NCBI GenBank assembly: GCA_001797815.1
Contig: MGQK01000027.1
Span: 5,016-21,879, forward strand
DNA: 16,864 nt
From: Deltaproteobacteria bacterium RBG_13_61_14
GTDB taxonomy: Bacteria > RBG-13-61-14
Reading direction: 5' to 3'
The notes beneath the pieces were generated by a model that was not told the origin of the DNA, did not search any database, and saw only the letters and a program-made list of their open reading frames with translations. Made by a program: the position numbers and the translations under genes. Of the stretch, positions 3,326-8,500 are shown piece after piece (the stretch's first letter is position 1; each line of letters starts with the position of its first letter).

Positions 3326-3720
3326 AAACTTTCCCGCGGGCCGGGCCGGCCCTGGCCCTGGTGAGCCTGCTCCTGCTTTTGCCGGTCTGCAGCCGCAAGG
3401 CCAAGCCGGATATGGAGCAACCGGGCCGCCGGGTGGAAGTGGGCGTGGCCAGTTGGTATGGCCGGGAGTTCCAAGGCCGGCCCACCGCCTCGGGCGAGCG
3501 CTTTGACATGCACGATCTCACCGCCGCGCACCGGACCCTCCCTTTCGGCACGCGGGTGAAAGTGACCAACCTAGAGAGCGGCAAGAGCGTGGTGGTGCGG
3601 ATCAATGACCGCGGGCCGCACAAACCCGGGCGGGTGATTGACCTGAGCTACGCCGCGGCCAAGCAACTGAACATGATCGAGCCCGGGACCGCGCGGGTCC
3701 GCATTGAAGTGCTGGAGTAA
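3322..3720 (+). CDS. rlpA: RlpA-like double-psi beta-barrel protein, probable lipoprotein
   Basis: RlpA proteins are outer-membrane lipoproteins that bind or cleave denuded peptidoglycan at septa. This 132-residue protein has an N-terminal hydrophobic signal (8-22) ending in LPVC, with C23 as the likely lipidated residue; Val at -1 is unusual for a lipobox. The double-psi beta-barrel covers about 38-130 and shows ASWYG (43-47), ASGE (56-59), AHRTLPFGT (69-77), VRINDRGPH (92-100) and D107 in IDLSYAAA. No SPOR domain is present, so it is a short form. The start overlaps the HAD stop by ATGA. The last 10 codons plus the following 9 bases are repeated exactly at 3920-3958, beyond a small inserted element. 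Enzymatic activity is inferred from the family only. Confidence 0.9.
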
Positions 3721-3729
3721 GCCGTGGCC
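3691..3729 (+). repeat. 39-bp direct repeat, left copy (flanks small inserted element)
   Basis: It runs from GCGCGGGTCC to GTGGCC and covers the last rlpA codons, its TAA stop, a GGAG ribosome-binding site and GTG GCC. It is identical to 3920-3958, and extending 3 bases left adds one mismatch. It ends exactly where the inserted element begins. Confidence 0.97.
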
Positions 3730-3753
3730 ATGGGGTCAGGTCTTGACATTTGA
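3724..3753 (+). CDS. Decoy 9-codon leader ORF made by duplication of the xylG start
   Basis: The left 39-bp copy retains the xylG ribosome-binding site and GTG GCC, but the frame runs straight into the inserted element and ends after MAMGSGLDI at TGA (3751-3753). This is a by-product of the insertion rather than an ancestral gene. It could bind ribosomes and act as a leader ORF ahead of xylG. Translation is inferred only from the intact GGAG-6 nt-GTG signal. Confidence 0.45.
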   Translation: MAMGSGLDI

Positions 3754-3758
3754 CATTC
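3731..3758 (+). repeat. Left terminal inverted repeat of the small element
   Basis: 28 bp starting TGGGGTCAGG and ending TTTGACATTC. It matches the reverse complement of 3887-3914 with one mismatch, and matches the left end of the larger element (5460-5487) over all 28 bases. It contains two tandem TGACATT units. Confidence 0.95.
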
Positions 3759-3886
3759 GAACTGATTCTGGCCTTGCGATGAGTGAGGCAAAGAGAGACG
3801 GTTTCAAGATGCAATCATTCTTTTTAGAGATTATAAGGGAATCGAACGGCACAGGAAAAATAACTAAATCCAACAGGTTTCGCCAT

Positions 3887-3914
3887 GAATGTCCAATGTC
3901 AAGACCTGACCCCA
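3887..3914 (-). repeat. Right terminal inverted repeat of the small element
   Basis: 28 bp starting GAATGTCC and ending ACCTGACCCCA. Its reverse complement matches 3731-3758 with one mismatch. Confidence 0.95.
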
Positions 3915-3919
3915 AAACG

Positions 3920-3958
3920 GCGCGGGTCCGCATTGAAGTGCTGGAGTAAGCCGTGGCC
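3920..3958 (+). repeat. 39-bp direct repeat, right copy (supplies xylG ribosome-binding site and start)
   Basis: Identical to 3691-3729. The GGAG at 3943-3946 and the GTG at 3953 serve xylG, with a 6-nt spacer. The preceding coding-like part (RVRIEVLE stop) is only a duplicate of the rlpA end. Confidence 0.97.
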
Positions 3959-5482
3959 GATCCGCTCCTTCAGATGGAGGAGATCACCAAGGACTTCCCC
4001 GGCGTCCGGGCGCTGGACCGCGTGCGCTTCGAGCTTAATCCGGGCGAGGTCCACGCCCTGGTGGGCGAAAACGGCGCGGGCAAGAGCACACTGATCAAGA
4101 TCCTGGCCGGTGTCTATCCGGCCGGGAGTTTTCAGGGCATGATCCGGCTCTCCGGCCAGCCGGTGCGCCTGCGCGGCATCCGCGAGGCCGAGGCGCACGG
4201 GATCGCGGTCATCCACCAGGAGCTGGCCCTGGCCCGGAACCTCTCCGTGGGCGAAAATATCTTCCTCGGCCGCATGCCCGCCCGCGCCGGCGTGGTGCAG
4301 TGGGACAAGCTCTTCCACCAGAGCGCCCTGATCCTGGCCGAGTTCGGGCTGGACCTCAACCCCCGCGCGCCGGTCGAAACTTTAAGCTTGGGCCGGCAGC
4401 AACTGGTGGAGATCGCCCGCGCGCTGGCGCGGGAGGCGAGCATCCTGGTGCTGGACGAGCCGACCTCCGCGCTCGCCGACCACGAGATCCAGGCCCTGAT
4501 GGCCATTCTCCGCCGGCTGAAAGAACGGGGCGTGGCCTGCATCTATATCTCGCACAAGCTGGCCGAGGTGTTCGCCATCGCGGACCGGGTCACCGTGCTC
4601 CGCGACGGCAAGAACGCGGGCGCCGGCGAGGCGGCCGAGCTTTCCGAGGGCCGGGTGATCTCGATGATGGTGGGCCGCGAGCTCTTCGAGCTGTATCCGC
4701 GCACCCGCCGGCCGGCCGGCGAGGTTGTGCTTGAGGTCTCGGACTTGACGGTGGCAGACCCGGAGCGGCCGGGCCGGCGCCTGGTGGATGGCGTGAGTTT
4801 TCAGGTGCGGGCGGGCGAGGTGCTGGGCCTGTGCGGGCTTTTGGGCGCGGGCCGGACCGAGATGCTCGCGGCCGTCTTCGGCGCCGCGGCCGGGCCGGTC
4901 GCGGGCGAGGTGCGGGTGGCGGGCCGGCCGGTGGCGATTCGCTCGCCCCGGGACGCGATCCGGGCGGGCATGGCGCTCTTGACCGAGGACCGCCAGCGCC
5001 TGGGCCTGGTGCCGACGCAGAGCGTGGAGGAAAACCTGACGCTGGCCAGCCTGCGGGAAATCTCGCGCGGGCCTGTGCTCTCGCGGCCGGCGTCGCTGGC
5101 CCGCAGCCAGGAGATGGTGTCCGAGCTCCGCATCAAAACGCCGGGCCTGGAGGCGCAGGTGATCAACCTCTCGGGCGGCAACCAGCAAAAGGTGCTGCTC
5201 GGCCGGTGGCTCCTCACCCGGCCCCGGGTGCTCCTCCTGGACGAGCCGACCCGCGGCATTGACGTGGGCGCTAAGGCGGAGGTGTTCGAGATCATCAACC
5301 GCCTGGCCAGCCAGGGCGCCGGCGTGGTCATGGCCAGTTCGGAGCTGCCTGAGCTTTTAGGCATGAGCGACCGCATCCTGGTGCTCCGGGAGGGACGAGT
5401 GGCCGGCGAGTTCCGGGTGGAAGAGGCCACCCAGGAAAAACTGATGGCCGCCGCGGCCATGGGGTCAGGTCTTGACATTTGA
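3953..5482 (+). CDS. xylG: D-xylose-type sugar ABC transporter ATP-binding protein XylG, tail replaced by mobile element
   Basis: This is the tandem ATPase that powers sugar import through XylH at the inner membrane. The first ABC domain has Walker A GENGAGKST (38-46), HQE (88-90), signature LSLGRQQ (144-150) and Walker B ILVLDEP (164-170). The second has the degenerate Walker A GLLGAGRTE typical of RbsA/XylG/MglA (295-303), LSGGNQQ (406-412) and LLLDEPTRG (427-435). GVYPAGSFQG and MMVGREL...LYP resemble XylG more than RbsA. The start is the GTG at 3953 with GGAG 6 nt upstream, inside the 39-bp duplication. Native sequence ends at A502; the last residues MGSGLDI and the stop come from the left end of the inserted RAYT element. 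Removing that element would give a tail KTKDKDGCLA and an ATGA overlap with xylH. Exact sugar specificity is inferred. Confidence 0.93.
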   Translation: MADPLLQMEEITKDFPGVRALDRVRFELNPGEVHALVGENGAGKSTLIKILAGVYPAGSFQGMIRLSGQPVRLRGIREAEAHGIAVIHQELALARNLSVGENIFLGRMPARAGVVQWDKLFHQSALILAEFGLDLNPRAPVETLSLGRQQLVEIARALAREASILVLDEPTSALADHEIQALMAILRRLKERGVACIYISHKLAEVFAIADRVTVLRDGKNAGAGEAAELSEGRVISMMVGRELFELYPRTRRPAGEVVLEVSDLTVADPERPGRRLVDGVSFQVRAGEVLGLCGLLGAGRTEMLAAVFGAAAGPVAGEVRVAGRPVAIRSPRDAIRAGMALLTEDRQRLGLVPTQSVEENLTLASLREISRGPVLSRPASLARSQEMVSELRIKTPGLEAQVINLSGGNQQKVLLGRWLLTRPRVLLLDEPTRGIDVGAKAEVFEIINRLASQGAGVVMASSELPELLGMSDRILVLREGRVAGEFRVEEATQEKLMAAAAMGSGLDI

Positions 5483-5486
5483 CATT
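5460..5486 (+). repeat. Left terminal inverted repeat of RAYT element
   Basis: 27 bp, perfect reverse complement of 6462-6488. Read in the xylG frame, together with A5459 it adds MGSGLDI and a TGA stop to the upstream gene. Confidence 0.96.
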
Positions 5487-5490
5487 CAGC

Positions 5491-5520
5491 TTGACAATTC
5501 TCCTGCCGGCCTGCTAATCT
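5491..5520 (+). promoter_or_regulatory. Candidate promoter for the transposase (possibly leaderless)
   Basis: A perfect -35 TTGACA (5491-5496) is followed after 18 bp by TAATCT (5515-5520), which is preceded by TGC as in an extended -10. The ATG begins 7 nt after the -10, so transcription would start at or next to the start codon. No Shine-Dalgarno sequence precedes it. Weak -10, hence moderate confidence. Confidence 0.4.
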
Positions 5521-5526
5521 GAGCAC

Positions 5527-6483
5527 ATGGCCCGCCCCTGGCGAATCCAATTTCCCAATGCCCTCTACCATGTGACCGCCCGAGGCAACAACCGCCAGGC
5601 GATTTATCTCTCCGACAGTGACCGCGCGGATTTCCTTGAGCTCCTTTCCCGCTCGCACCAGCGCTTCTCCCTCGAAATCCTCGCCTTCTGCCTCATGACC
5701 AACCATTACCACCTTTTCCTCCAAACTCCCCAAGCCAACCTCTCCGCCGCCCTCCACTGGATCAATGCCACCTACACCAACCACTTCCACCGCCGGCACC
5801 GCCGCAACGGCCATCTTTTCCAGGGCCGCTACCAGGCCATTTTGATCACAGAGGAAGCGCATTGGCTTCACCTCTCCATGTACCTCCATTTGAACCCGGT
5901 CCGTGCCGGTCTGGTAGATGACCCGGCTGATTATAAATGGTCGAGCTTCCGCGACTACACCCGTTCCCAAGCGCGTTTCCCCTGGCTCAATCGGTCCCCG
6001 ATTTTGGCGGAGTATGGTTCCAACGATTCCTCCCGTCGGCGCCATTACCGGAACGAATGCCTGGCGCTGGCCGCAAAACAACCCAACTTTTGTAAAGAGT
6101 TGCTCAACCGCGTGGTTTTGGGTTCGGCTGAAGCTCTGGCCGAGTTGGTGAGGAAATATCCGCCCTCTGGTCAGGCCGATACAGTGCCGGATTTCCGGCG
6201 AGCGGCGCGCCCACCCGTGGATCCGAAGGCCGAACTGGGCCGGGTGGCAAGAGCTTTTGGAAAAGATCCAGCCAGCTTGAACAAGCGCGGCGCTCTCCCC
6301 CTCCGCCTGGCCGCTTACTACCATCTGGTGGAGCATGGCGGGATGAGTGCGACCCAAGTAGGAAACCTGATGGGAGTAAGTGTCTCTGCGGTTTCTAAAG
6401 GCTTGGCTCGGTTTCGCTCCCAACTCGAAAAAAATCGCTCCCTCCGCGCCCGCATGGAGTCAATGTCAAATGTCAAGACCTGA
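5527..6483 (+). CDS. REP-associated tyrosine transposase (Y1_Tnp family) with C-terminal helix-turn-helix domain
   Basis: RAYTs are IS200-like single-strand DNA nucleases thought to disperse REP-type palindromes. This 318-residue protein opens with the typical RPWRIQFPNALYHVTARGNN. The metal-binding HUH motif is H60-Y-H62 in CLMTNHYHLFLQ, and the likely nucleophile is Y119 in YLHLNPVRAGLV, followed by DYKWSSFRDY. A C-terminal extension (about 185-318) ends in a helix-turn-helix-like region (about 260-305, MSATQVGNLMGVSVSAVSKGL) resembling the DnaA C-terminal type found in longer RAYTs. All catalytic residues are present and the gene is intact, so it may be active. The last codons (NVKT and stop) lie within the right inverted repeat. 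It is flanked by xylG and xylH on the same strand. Confidence 0.94.
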   Translation: MARPWRIQFPNALYHVTARGNNRQAIYLSDSDRADFLELLSRSHQRFSLEILAFCLMTNHYHLFLQTPQANLSAALHWINATYTNHFHRRHRRNGHLFQGRYQAILITEEAHWLHLSMYLHLNPVRAGLVDDPADYKWSSFRDYTRSQARFPWLNRSPILAEYGSNDSSRRRHYRNECLALAAKQPNFCKELLNRVVLGSAEALAELVRKYPPSGQADTVPDFRRAARPPVDPKAELGRVARAFGKDPASLNKRGALPLRLAAYYHLVEHGGMSATQVGNLMGVSVSAVSKGLARFRSQLEKNRSLRARMESMSNVKT

Positions 6484-6488
6484 CCCCA
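6462..6488 (-). repeat. Right terminal inverted repeat of RAYT element
   Basis: 27 bp ending GACCTGACCCCA. It contains the transposase stop (TGA 6481-6483) in one frame and an ATG (6470-6472) in the xylH frame. Confidence 0.96.
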
Positions 6489-6517: not shown

Positions 6518-7654
6518 ATGAAGAAGATGCACGATTGGCAAAAGCATTTGCGCTTCGGGATCATGGTGGCGATCCTGCTCCTGATCTGGATCGGCTTTCA
6601 CTTCGCCACGGACTCCGCCTTCCTCTCCGCCCGCAACCTCAGTAACCTCATGCGCCAGATGTCGGTCACCGGCTTGGTCGCCATCGGCATGGTGTTGGTG
6701 ATCGTGGCCGGCCAGATTGACCTCTCGGTCGGCTCAGGCGTGGCCCTGGTCGGCGGCGCCGCCGCCATCCTTTACGTCCACCACGACTTTCCGCCGGCCC
6801 TGACCATCCTGGCCGCCCTGGGCCTGGGCGCGGCCATGGGACTGATTCAAGGGACCCTGGTGGCCTACCTCCGCATCCCGGCCTTCATCGTCACCCTGGG
6901 CGGGATGATGGCCTTCCGCGGGGCGCTGTGGAGCGTGACCCAGAGCATTTCCATCCACCTGCCCGAGGGTTTCTTCCGGACTTTCGGATCGGCTTATCTG
7001 CCCAAGCCCCTGGGCTGGGCGTTAGCCGGCCTGGCCGTGGCGATCACCATCTCGGCTTTCTTTTGGCGGCGGCAGAGCCGGCTCCGCTACGGGCTTCCGG
7101 CCCACGGCGCTCTCTTCACCGCGGCCCAGGCCGCCCTGGTCTCGGCCTTGATCCTTCTGTTCATGGCGGTGATGAACTCCTACCAGGGCGTGCCCCTGCC
7201 CGTCCTGATCCTGCTCGTGCTCACGCTCTTGATGAGCTTCGTCGCCTCGGGCTTAAGCTTCGGCCGGGGCGTCTATGCCATCGGCGGCAACCCCGACGCG
7301 GCCTACCTCTCGGGCATCGCCGTCAAGCGCCACCTGCTCGGAGTGTTCGTCATCCTCGGCCTGCTGGTCGGCGTCGCCGGGCTGACCCTCACCTCCTGGG
7401 TCGGATCGGCCACGCCCGAGGCCGGCCAACTCCTGGAGCTCGACGCCATCGCCGCCTGCGTGATCGGCGGCGCCAGCCTGATGGGAGGCCGCGGCCAGGT
7501 CCCGGGCGCGATCCTGGGCGCCTTGATCATGGCCAGCCTGGACAACGGCATGAGCCTGATGAACCTGGACCCATTCTGGCAACTGGTGGTCAAGGGTTGC
7601 GTTCTGGTGGCGGCAGTGTATATTGATATCCTGACCCGCCGGCGGAGCGGATGA
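6518..7654 (+). CDS. xylH: D-xylose-type sugar ABC transporter permease XylH
   Basis: This membrane permease pairs with XylG to import sugar. From the ATG at 6518 it has 378 residues with about ten hydrophobic segments. Family motifs include SARNLSNLMRQ, AGQIDLSVGS, IPAFIVTLGGMMAFRG, GRGVYAIGGNPDAAYLSGI, ELDAIAACVIGGASLMGG and ALIMASLDNGMSLMNL. It resembles E. coli XylH closely, including the long middle region between the two halves. No ribosome-binding site precedes 6518. Before insertion, the xylG TGA at 6519-6521 would have overlapped this ATG, giving coupling. Now an upstream in-frame ATG at 6470, inside the element's right repeat, could start a protein extended by MSRPDPKDKRQRWLLG. No periplasmic binding protein (XylF) gene is in the window. 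Confidence 0.92.
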   Translation: MKKMHDWQKHLRFGIMVAILLLIWIGFHFATDSAFLSARNLSNLMRQMSVTGLVAIGMVLVIVAGQIDLSVGSGVALVGGAAAILYVHHDFPPALTILAALGLGAAMGLIQGTLVAYLRIPAFIVTLGGMMAFRGALWSVTQSISIHLPEGFFRTFGSAYLPKPLGWALAGLAVAITISAFFWRRQSRLRYGLPAHGALFTAAQAALVSALILLFMAVMNSYQGVPLPVLILLVLTLLMSFVASGLSFGRGVYAIGGNPDAAYLSGIAVKRHLLGVFVILGLLVGVAGLTLTSWVGSATPEAGQLLELDAIAACVIGGASLMGGRGQVPGAILGALIMASLDNGMSLMNLDPFWQLVVKGCVLVAAVYIDILTRRRSG

Positions 7655-8485: not shown

Positions 8486-8500
8486 CGCGAGGGGGTCAGG

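Follow-up and report, generated by a model that had tools for sequence, protein, structure and literature searches.

A TIRtron with a predicted DnaA-like domain in its Y1 transposase, and the dispersed ends of its relatives, in a deltaproteobacterial genome

When domesticated transposases of bacteria are discussed, RAYTs are the standard example. In the IS200/IS605 group, the single-strand chemistry of the Y1 enzymes is established, and the absence of a target duplication is expected. Di Nocera, De Gregorio and Rocco (2013) gave the names TIRYTs and TIRtrons to RAYT-like genes situated between long terminal inverted repeats (TIRs); in the majority of members the TIRs share the motif GGGGWSAS, and they are also dispersed as singles, dimers and groups (PMC3733652). 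Most TIRYTs were later equated with subclass 2.1 of the TnpA-Y1 proteins and with RAYT group 1 of Bertels (Quentin 2018, PMC6006769). Class 2 TnpA-Y1 genes are divergent and single-copy, and subclass 2.1, present in about 15% of the strains of Quentin's sample, is characterized by a C-terminal HTH/DnaA-like domain, a low copy number and a low identity between copies (PMC6006769). The same study pointed out that GGGGWSAS does not resemble a DnaA box, doubted that the domain has a role in reading the target and left that target open (PMC6006769). We found almost no mechanistic work on this TIR-flanked branch.

The window, a stretch of 16,864 nt from Deltaproteobacteria bacterium RBG_13_61_14, contains a unit of 1,029 bp (positions 5460–6488) bounded by perfect 27-bp inverted repeats (Table 1). 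The initial annotation had described it as a discrete and intact element with the stop codon of the transposase inside the right terminus, and both statements hold: the two arms (TGGGGTCAGGTCTTGACATTTGACATT), separated by 975 nt, are 100% complementary, and the ORF of 318 codons ends with a TGA (6481–6483) that falls within the right arm. The unit has inserted where a xylG-like gene ends, and the left repeat supplies the stop codon (5480–5482) of this gene.

Table 1. Coordinates of the features of the window
Feature	Coordinates	Strand	Remarks
Left copy of 39-bp direct duplication	3691..3729	+	End of rlpA-like gene
Miniature lacking an ORF, folding into one long hairpin	3731..3914		Same ends, one mismatch between them
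Right copy of 39-bp duplication	3920..3958	+	xylG-like start (GTG 3953) and GGAG upstream
xylG-like sugar ABC transporter ATPase	3953..5482	+	Last codons and stop read from left terminus
Left terminal inverted repeat	5460..5486	+	(T)GGGGTCAG + GT + C + TTGACAT TTGACAT + T
Predicted -35/-10 promoter (TTGACA ... TAATCT region)	5491..5520	+	Ends about 6-8 nt before ATG
Y1/HUH transposase, REP-associated type, 318 aa	5527..6483	+	HUH-Y core ~1-180; DnaA-domain-IV-like HTH ~231-317 (predicted)
Right terminal inverted repeat	6462..6488	-	Perfect complement of left; holds transposase stop codon
Sugar ABC transporter permease (GguB/XylH-like), downstream of insertion	6519..7654	+	Start picked by eye

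The assignment of the product to the RAYT type was borne out by NCBIfam model NF047646 (REP_Tyr_transpos, REP-associated tyrosine transposase), matched with 82.7 bits against a curated cut-off of 80; Pfam PF01797 (Y1_Tnp) was also matched above its cut-off. The catalytic residues H60, H62 and Y119 are intact, as previously annotated, and these three residues and N123 are invariant in an alignment of 23 homologues. H60-Y61-H62 constitutes the HUH motif, and the HUH and Y---NP motifs of TnpA-REP from Escherichia coli (PDB 4er8) align with H60/H62 and Y119/N123, respectively. In an AlphaFold2 model obtained from 15 natural homologues (mean pLDDT 80.7), the core was most similar to the 4er8 RAYT (Z 17.4, 2.6 Å over 155 residues), with a poorer match to the TnpA proteins of IS608 and ISDra2 (Z about 10). 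Residues 231–317 of the model matched domain IV of DnaA (1j1v; Z 13.8, 1.8 Å over 87 residues), a match that clearly exceeded those of unrelated helical entries. Comparison with the domain IV profile of the host's own DnaA using hhalign gave a probability of 91% (E 9e-7, 65 columns), and only 33% with the smaller alignment A2; additionally, Bac_DnaA_C was matched in one relative (2.8e-5). The C-terminal domain is therefore predicted to adopt the DnaA domain IV fold.

The unit was originally set apart from lone, domesticated RAYTs, but a RAYT-like gene flanked by long inverted termini is what defines the TIRYTs/TIRtrons (PMC3733652, PMC6006769): it is a TIRtron, of a kind known since 2013, and no exception among RAYTs. 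It shares with TIRtrons a Y1 transposase that has the HUH motif and the catalytic tyrosine (H60, H62, Y119), perfect 27-bp ends that lack GTAG and are unrelated to GTAG REPs, a layout that is the same in 12 paralogues, and an octamer, GGGGTCAG, that fits GGGGWSAS, the 151 ends found with a looser pattern (see below) occurring as singles, pairs and clusters. It differs in the unusually high number of lineages in one genome (12 intact), and in the tandem heptamers and the promoter near the ATG, terms that are absent from the text of PMC3733652. From the features tested, its class is most likely subclass 2.1 of Quentin, or RAYT group 1 of Bertels, with which it has in common a long protein with the Y---NP signature and a C-terminal HTH/Bac_DnaA_C-like domain, few intragenomic copies of low identity, and no REP hairpins. 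The likeness to TnpA-REP extends to the catalytic fold and to the HUH, Y and N motifs, whereas REPtrons sensu stricto carry GTAG-tagged REP hairpins instead of the linear inverted repeats seen here, and TnpA-REP lacks the extra DnaA-like C-terminal domain. With IS200/IS605 elements it shares the Y1/HUH core and the lack of target duplication. However, at 318 aa the protein has twice the length of those TnpA proteins (about 150 aa) and an extra domain, the ends are inverted repeats instead of subterminal hairpins, and near-identical copies are missing (closest about 60% in amino acids; assembly collapse possible). As to DnaA, the predicted fold of residues 231–317 and the profile are similar, but the AAA+ domain is missing and the heptamers do not fit a full DnaA box.

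The whole unit is present as a single copy in the source genome (4.74 Mb in 132 contigs, where identical copies could be collapsed); since this assembly is fragmented, copy numbers are lower bounds. There are 11 further full-length, stop-free relatives of the transposase, 46–60% identical to the product of 5527–6483 (the closest about 60%), and the 12 paralogues are mutually no more than 62% identical. All 12 are flanked by GGGGTCAG ends, with GGTGTCAG in L020 and a left end GGGGTCGG in L016; the automatic arm finder mis-paired this last locus. The ends start some 60–80 nt before the ATG and delimit units near 1.02–1.07 kb, with ORFs that enter or nearly reach the right end, and each paralogue has its own end subtype. 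The same layout was found in other phyla (Desulfobacterales, Gammaproteobacteria and Omnitrophota). Homologues occurred in 12 of 72,556 plasmid records, all below 60% identity, and in one phage record; the exact 26-mer terminus had no matches in viral contigs.

Each end consists of the constant octamer GGGGTCAG, a variable dinucleotide, a C and a subtype-specific tandem pair of heptamers, such as TTGACAT-TTGACAT (unit 5460–6488), TTCACAT-TTCACAT (L018), TTTAGTT-TTTAGTT (L017) or CTGACAA-TTCACAA (L012). Identity at a period of 7 was 0.66 over the 12 elements (0.39 or less for other periods), and 0.56 over 71 distinct ends, against a maximum of 0.36 in shuffles. Neither direct repeats nor tandem heptamers in the ends are mentioned in the searched text of PMC3733652 and PMC6006769. 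Distances between ends correlated with distances between proteins among the 12 paralogues (Mantel r 0.44, p 0.003), and the correlation dropped when the two most divergent, L020 and L021, were left out (r 0.27, p 0.09). In addition, the unit L034 (positions 1501–2531, genome G016), from a remote lineage and similar in size, shares the 26-nt end exactly, yet its transposase is only 30% identical. The pairing of ends and proteins is thus not strict, and a strict co-evolution of both is weakened by this case. A REP-like hairpin within each end was also considered: GTCA...TGAC is present here and GTCAG...CTGAC in L012, but it is missing in the CTTCAC and CTTTAG subtypes and, as judged by eye, no hairpin is conserved among end subtypes. 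Full DnaA boxes (TTWTNCACA) were no more frequent in the ends than in shuffles (p 0.81), and the heptamers matched the 3′ half of the box weakly (p 0.003, with non-independent sequences).

Upstream of the 12 paralogues, the best -35/-10 pair had a mean of 8.8 matches, compared to 6.3 for shuffled sequences (maximum 7.25 of 200). The predicted promoter, typically TTGACA-N17-TANNNT, is conserved in position, with 5–8 nt between the end of the -10 box and the ATG (11 nt in L013, whose match is weak). With the -10 box so near, transcription would be expected to start at or next to the ATG; we infer that the transposase mRNA is leaderless and expressed from the unit's own internal promoter.

Nine occurrences of the 20-nt terminus are present in the source genome, against none of its reversed control; the terminus is thus found elsewhere in the genome, and passes a check put forward with the initial annotation. 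A looser pattern (GGGGTCAGNNCNTNA) occurs 151 times, against once for its control. These figures exclude a chance origin of the ends. From 80 stretches and the window we collected 133 ends, 98 of which are within three mismatches of the ends of some paralogue, arranged as solos, close inverted pairs of 59–81 bp, larger miniatures and clusters. The interior of two miniatures from contig C99 (L190, 504–609 and 2248–2423), of the same end subtype as the unit, reads as an N-terminal fragment of a transposase, and these miniatures are internal-deletion derivatives. Each intact gene being single-copy and the ends dispersed, the system is REPtron-like, with one transposase serving many small repeats. 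The contrast with a lone RAYT drawn in the initial annotation does not stand, because dispersed short ends are themselves the pattern of a lone RAYT plus many small repeats.

The second element with the same ends, claimed to lie 1.5 kb away, is real as a pair of ends (3731–3758 and 3887–3914, 96% complementary, 128 nt between them), but these delimit only 184 bp; it is a miniature and not a second RAYT, because it lacks an ORF and resembles the transposase unit in its ends alone. Given the dissimilar interior, an origin by internal deletion of the 5527–6483 transposase was rejected. Through the 39-bp duplication around this miniature, the rlpA-like gene keeps an intact end and the xylG-like gene an intact start. 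Of 27 end pairs (among them that of L034, from another genome), 26 had no duplication abutting the element, in line with Y1 chemistry; a target-site duplication was rejected for these, the 184-bp miniature being the sole exception. Just outside GGGG, T is weakly favoured, most of all at -1 and -2; GAT[TC] was found only in the subtype of L015, so there is no fixed target. The left flanks of both elements of the window (5450–5459 and 3721–3730) are nearly the same 10-mer (GCCGCGGCCA and GCCGTGGCCA, respectively), yet they belong to different genes.

We consider it likely that the locus is best explained as a TIRtron, inserted at the end of the xylG-like gene, together with a mechanism that disperses its ends. 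The Y1 core would cleave and rejoin single-stranded DNA at or near GGGGTCAG through a 5′-phosphotyrosine, as TnpA-REP and TnpA-IS608 do, and the DnaA-like domain would recognise the tandem heptamers, so that every paralogue would have a set of ends of its own. In most cases, short end-bearing pieces (solos, pairs and internal-deletion derivatives) would be dispersed, and the whole 1-kb unit would move rarely. The gene is probably expressed from its internal, apparently leaderless promoter. Counting against this explanation are the incomplete co-variation of ends and proteins (r 0.27, p 0.09; L034), the mismatch between the heptamers and the full DnaA box (p 0.81; 3′ half weakly matched), the fragmented assembly, in which identical copies could have collapsed, and the 39-bp duplication at one miniature, unexpected from Y1 insertion alone.

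The perfect 27-bp ends, an ORF that is intact and has its own predicted promoter, and a miniature with the same ends could also correspond to an autonomous, currently active insertion sequence that moves as a full 1,029-bp unit, with the miniature as its non-autonomous partner. In two order-level relatives, the best-matching XylG homologues (47–48% identity, orthology uncertain) end normally without an element, followed directly by a permease ORF in relative L111, and the ends are absent from both genomes, which also fits such an insertion sequence. Nevertheless, this alternative is improbable, as a second copy is missing, the closest full-length relative is only about 60% identical, the 12 paralogues are 62% identical or less, and plasmid and phage homologues are very few. 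For the same reasons, the recent or ongoing mobility proposed in the initial annotation is not supported for the whole unit, which is single-copy and has 11 paralogues, 46–60% identical, each with its own end subtype.

Twelve divergent, intact and single-copy ORFs are, on the other hand, what is described for class 2 TnpA-Y1 genes (PMC6006769), and would agree with a domesticated, immobile RAYT with a host function. The ends would then be fossils or sites bound for another purpose, such as gene-end marking or, given the DnaA-like domain, replication or chromosome organisation; both this reading and these purposes seem rather unlikely to us, because near-identical, subtype-specific dispersed ends and deletion derivatives imply a past sequence-specific spread, and the unit retains both ends perfect. 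That the inverted repeats are an incidental intergenic family, for instance transcription-terminator hairpins, beside an unrelated transposase would be consistent with the strong hairpins that paired ends can form and with their location here at gene junctions. It is, however, barely credible when 12 of 12 paralogues have the same class of ends at a similar distance from their ATG and an ORF that enters or nearly reaches the right end, an arrangement found also in Desulfobacterales, Gammaproteobacteria and Omnitrophota.

Returning to the TIRtron with dispersed ends, the heptamer pair adjoining the octamer is a candidate target of the DnaA-like domain, in contrast with subclass 2.1 as described by Quentin (2018). 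We tentatively suggest, with somewhat more doubt than conviction, a two-part end code, in which the invariant GGGGTCAG, serving the Y1 chemistry, is combined with a heptamer pair read by a DnaA-domain-IV-like reader, so that a dozen mutually insulated transposase/repeat systems would coexist in one genome. If true, this code would resolve the doubt raised in 2018 over what the DnaA-like domain of subclass 2.1 recognises, and the paired heptamers offer specific, mutable bases for testing it. With their subtype-matched ends, the 12 coexisting lineages constitute a natural panel in which to study how DNA is chosen by a Y1 transposase that carries a DnaA-like reader, and whether it is the short ends or the whole units that move. 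The two-part code, the reader and the number of parallel lineages are hence the aspects worth following.

End subtype GGGGTCAGAACTTTACTTTAAACTTT is present in many copies (G000 contigs C7, C12, C45, C71, C99, C116, C118 and others), and an intact transposase with matching ends was not found in this assembly. In the window, position 8492 has an extra GGGGTCAG immediately after a TPR gene, followed by GACCCTG instead of heptamers; it may be a decayed end. Many of the solo ends, across different heptamer subtypes (L131, L149, L155, L158, L168, L171, L185, L199 and others), run into a shared tail like ACATNNTTGCATA and then into unique sequence, as if the solo were a unit of ~40 bp with its own inner boundary.
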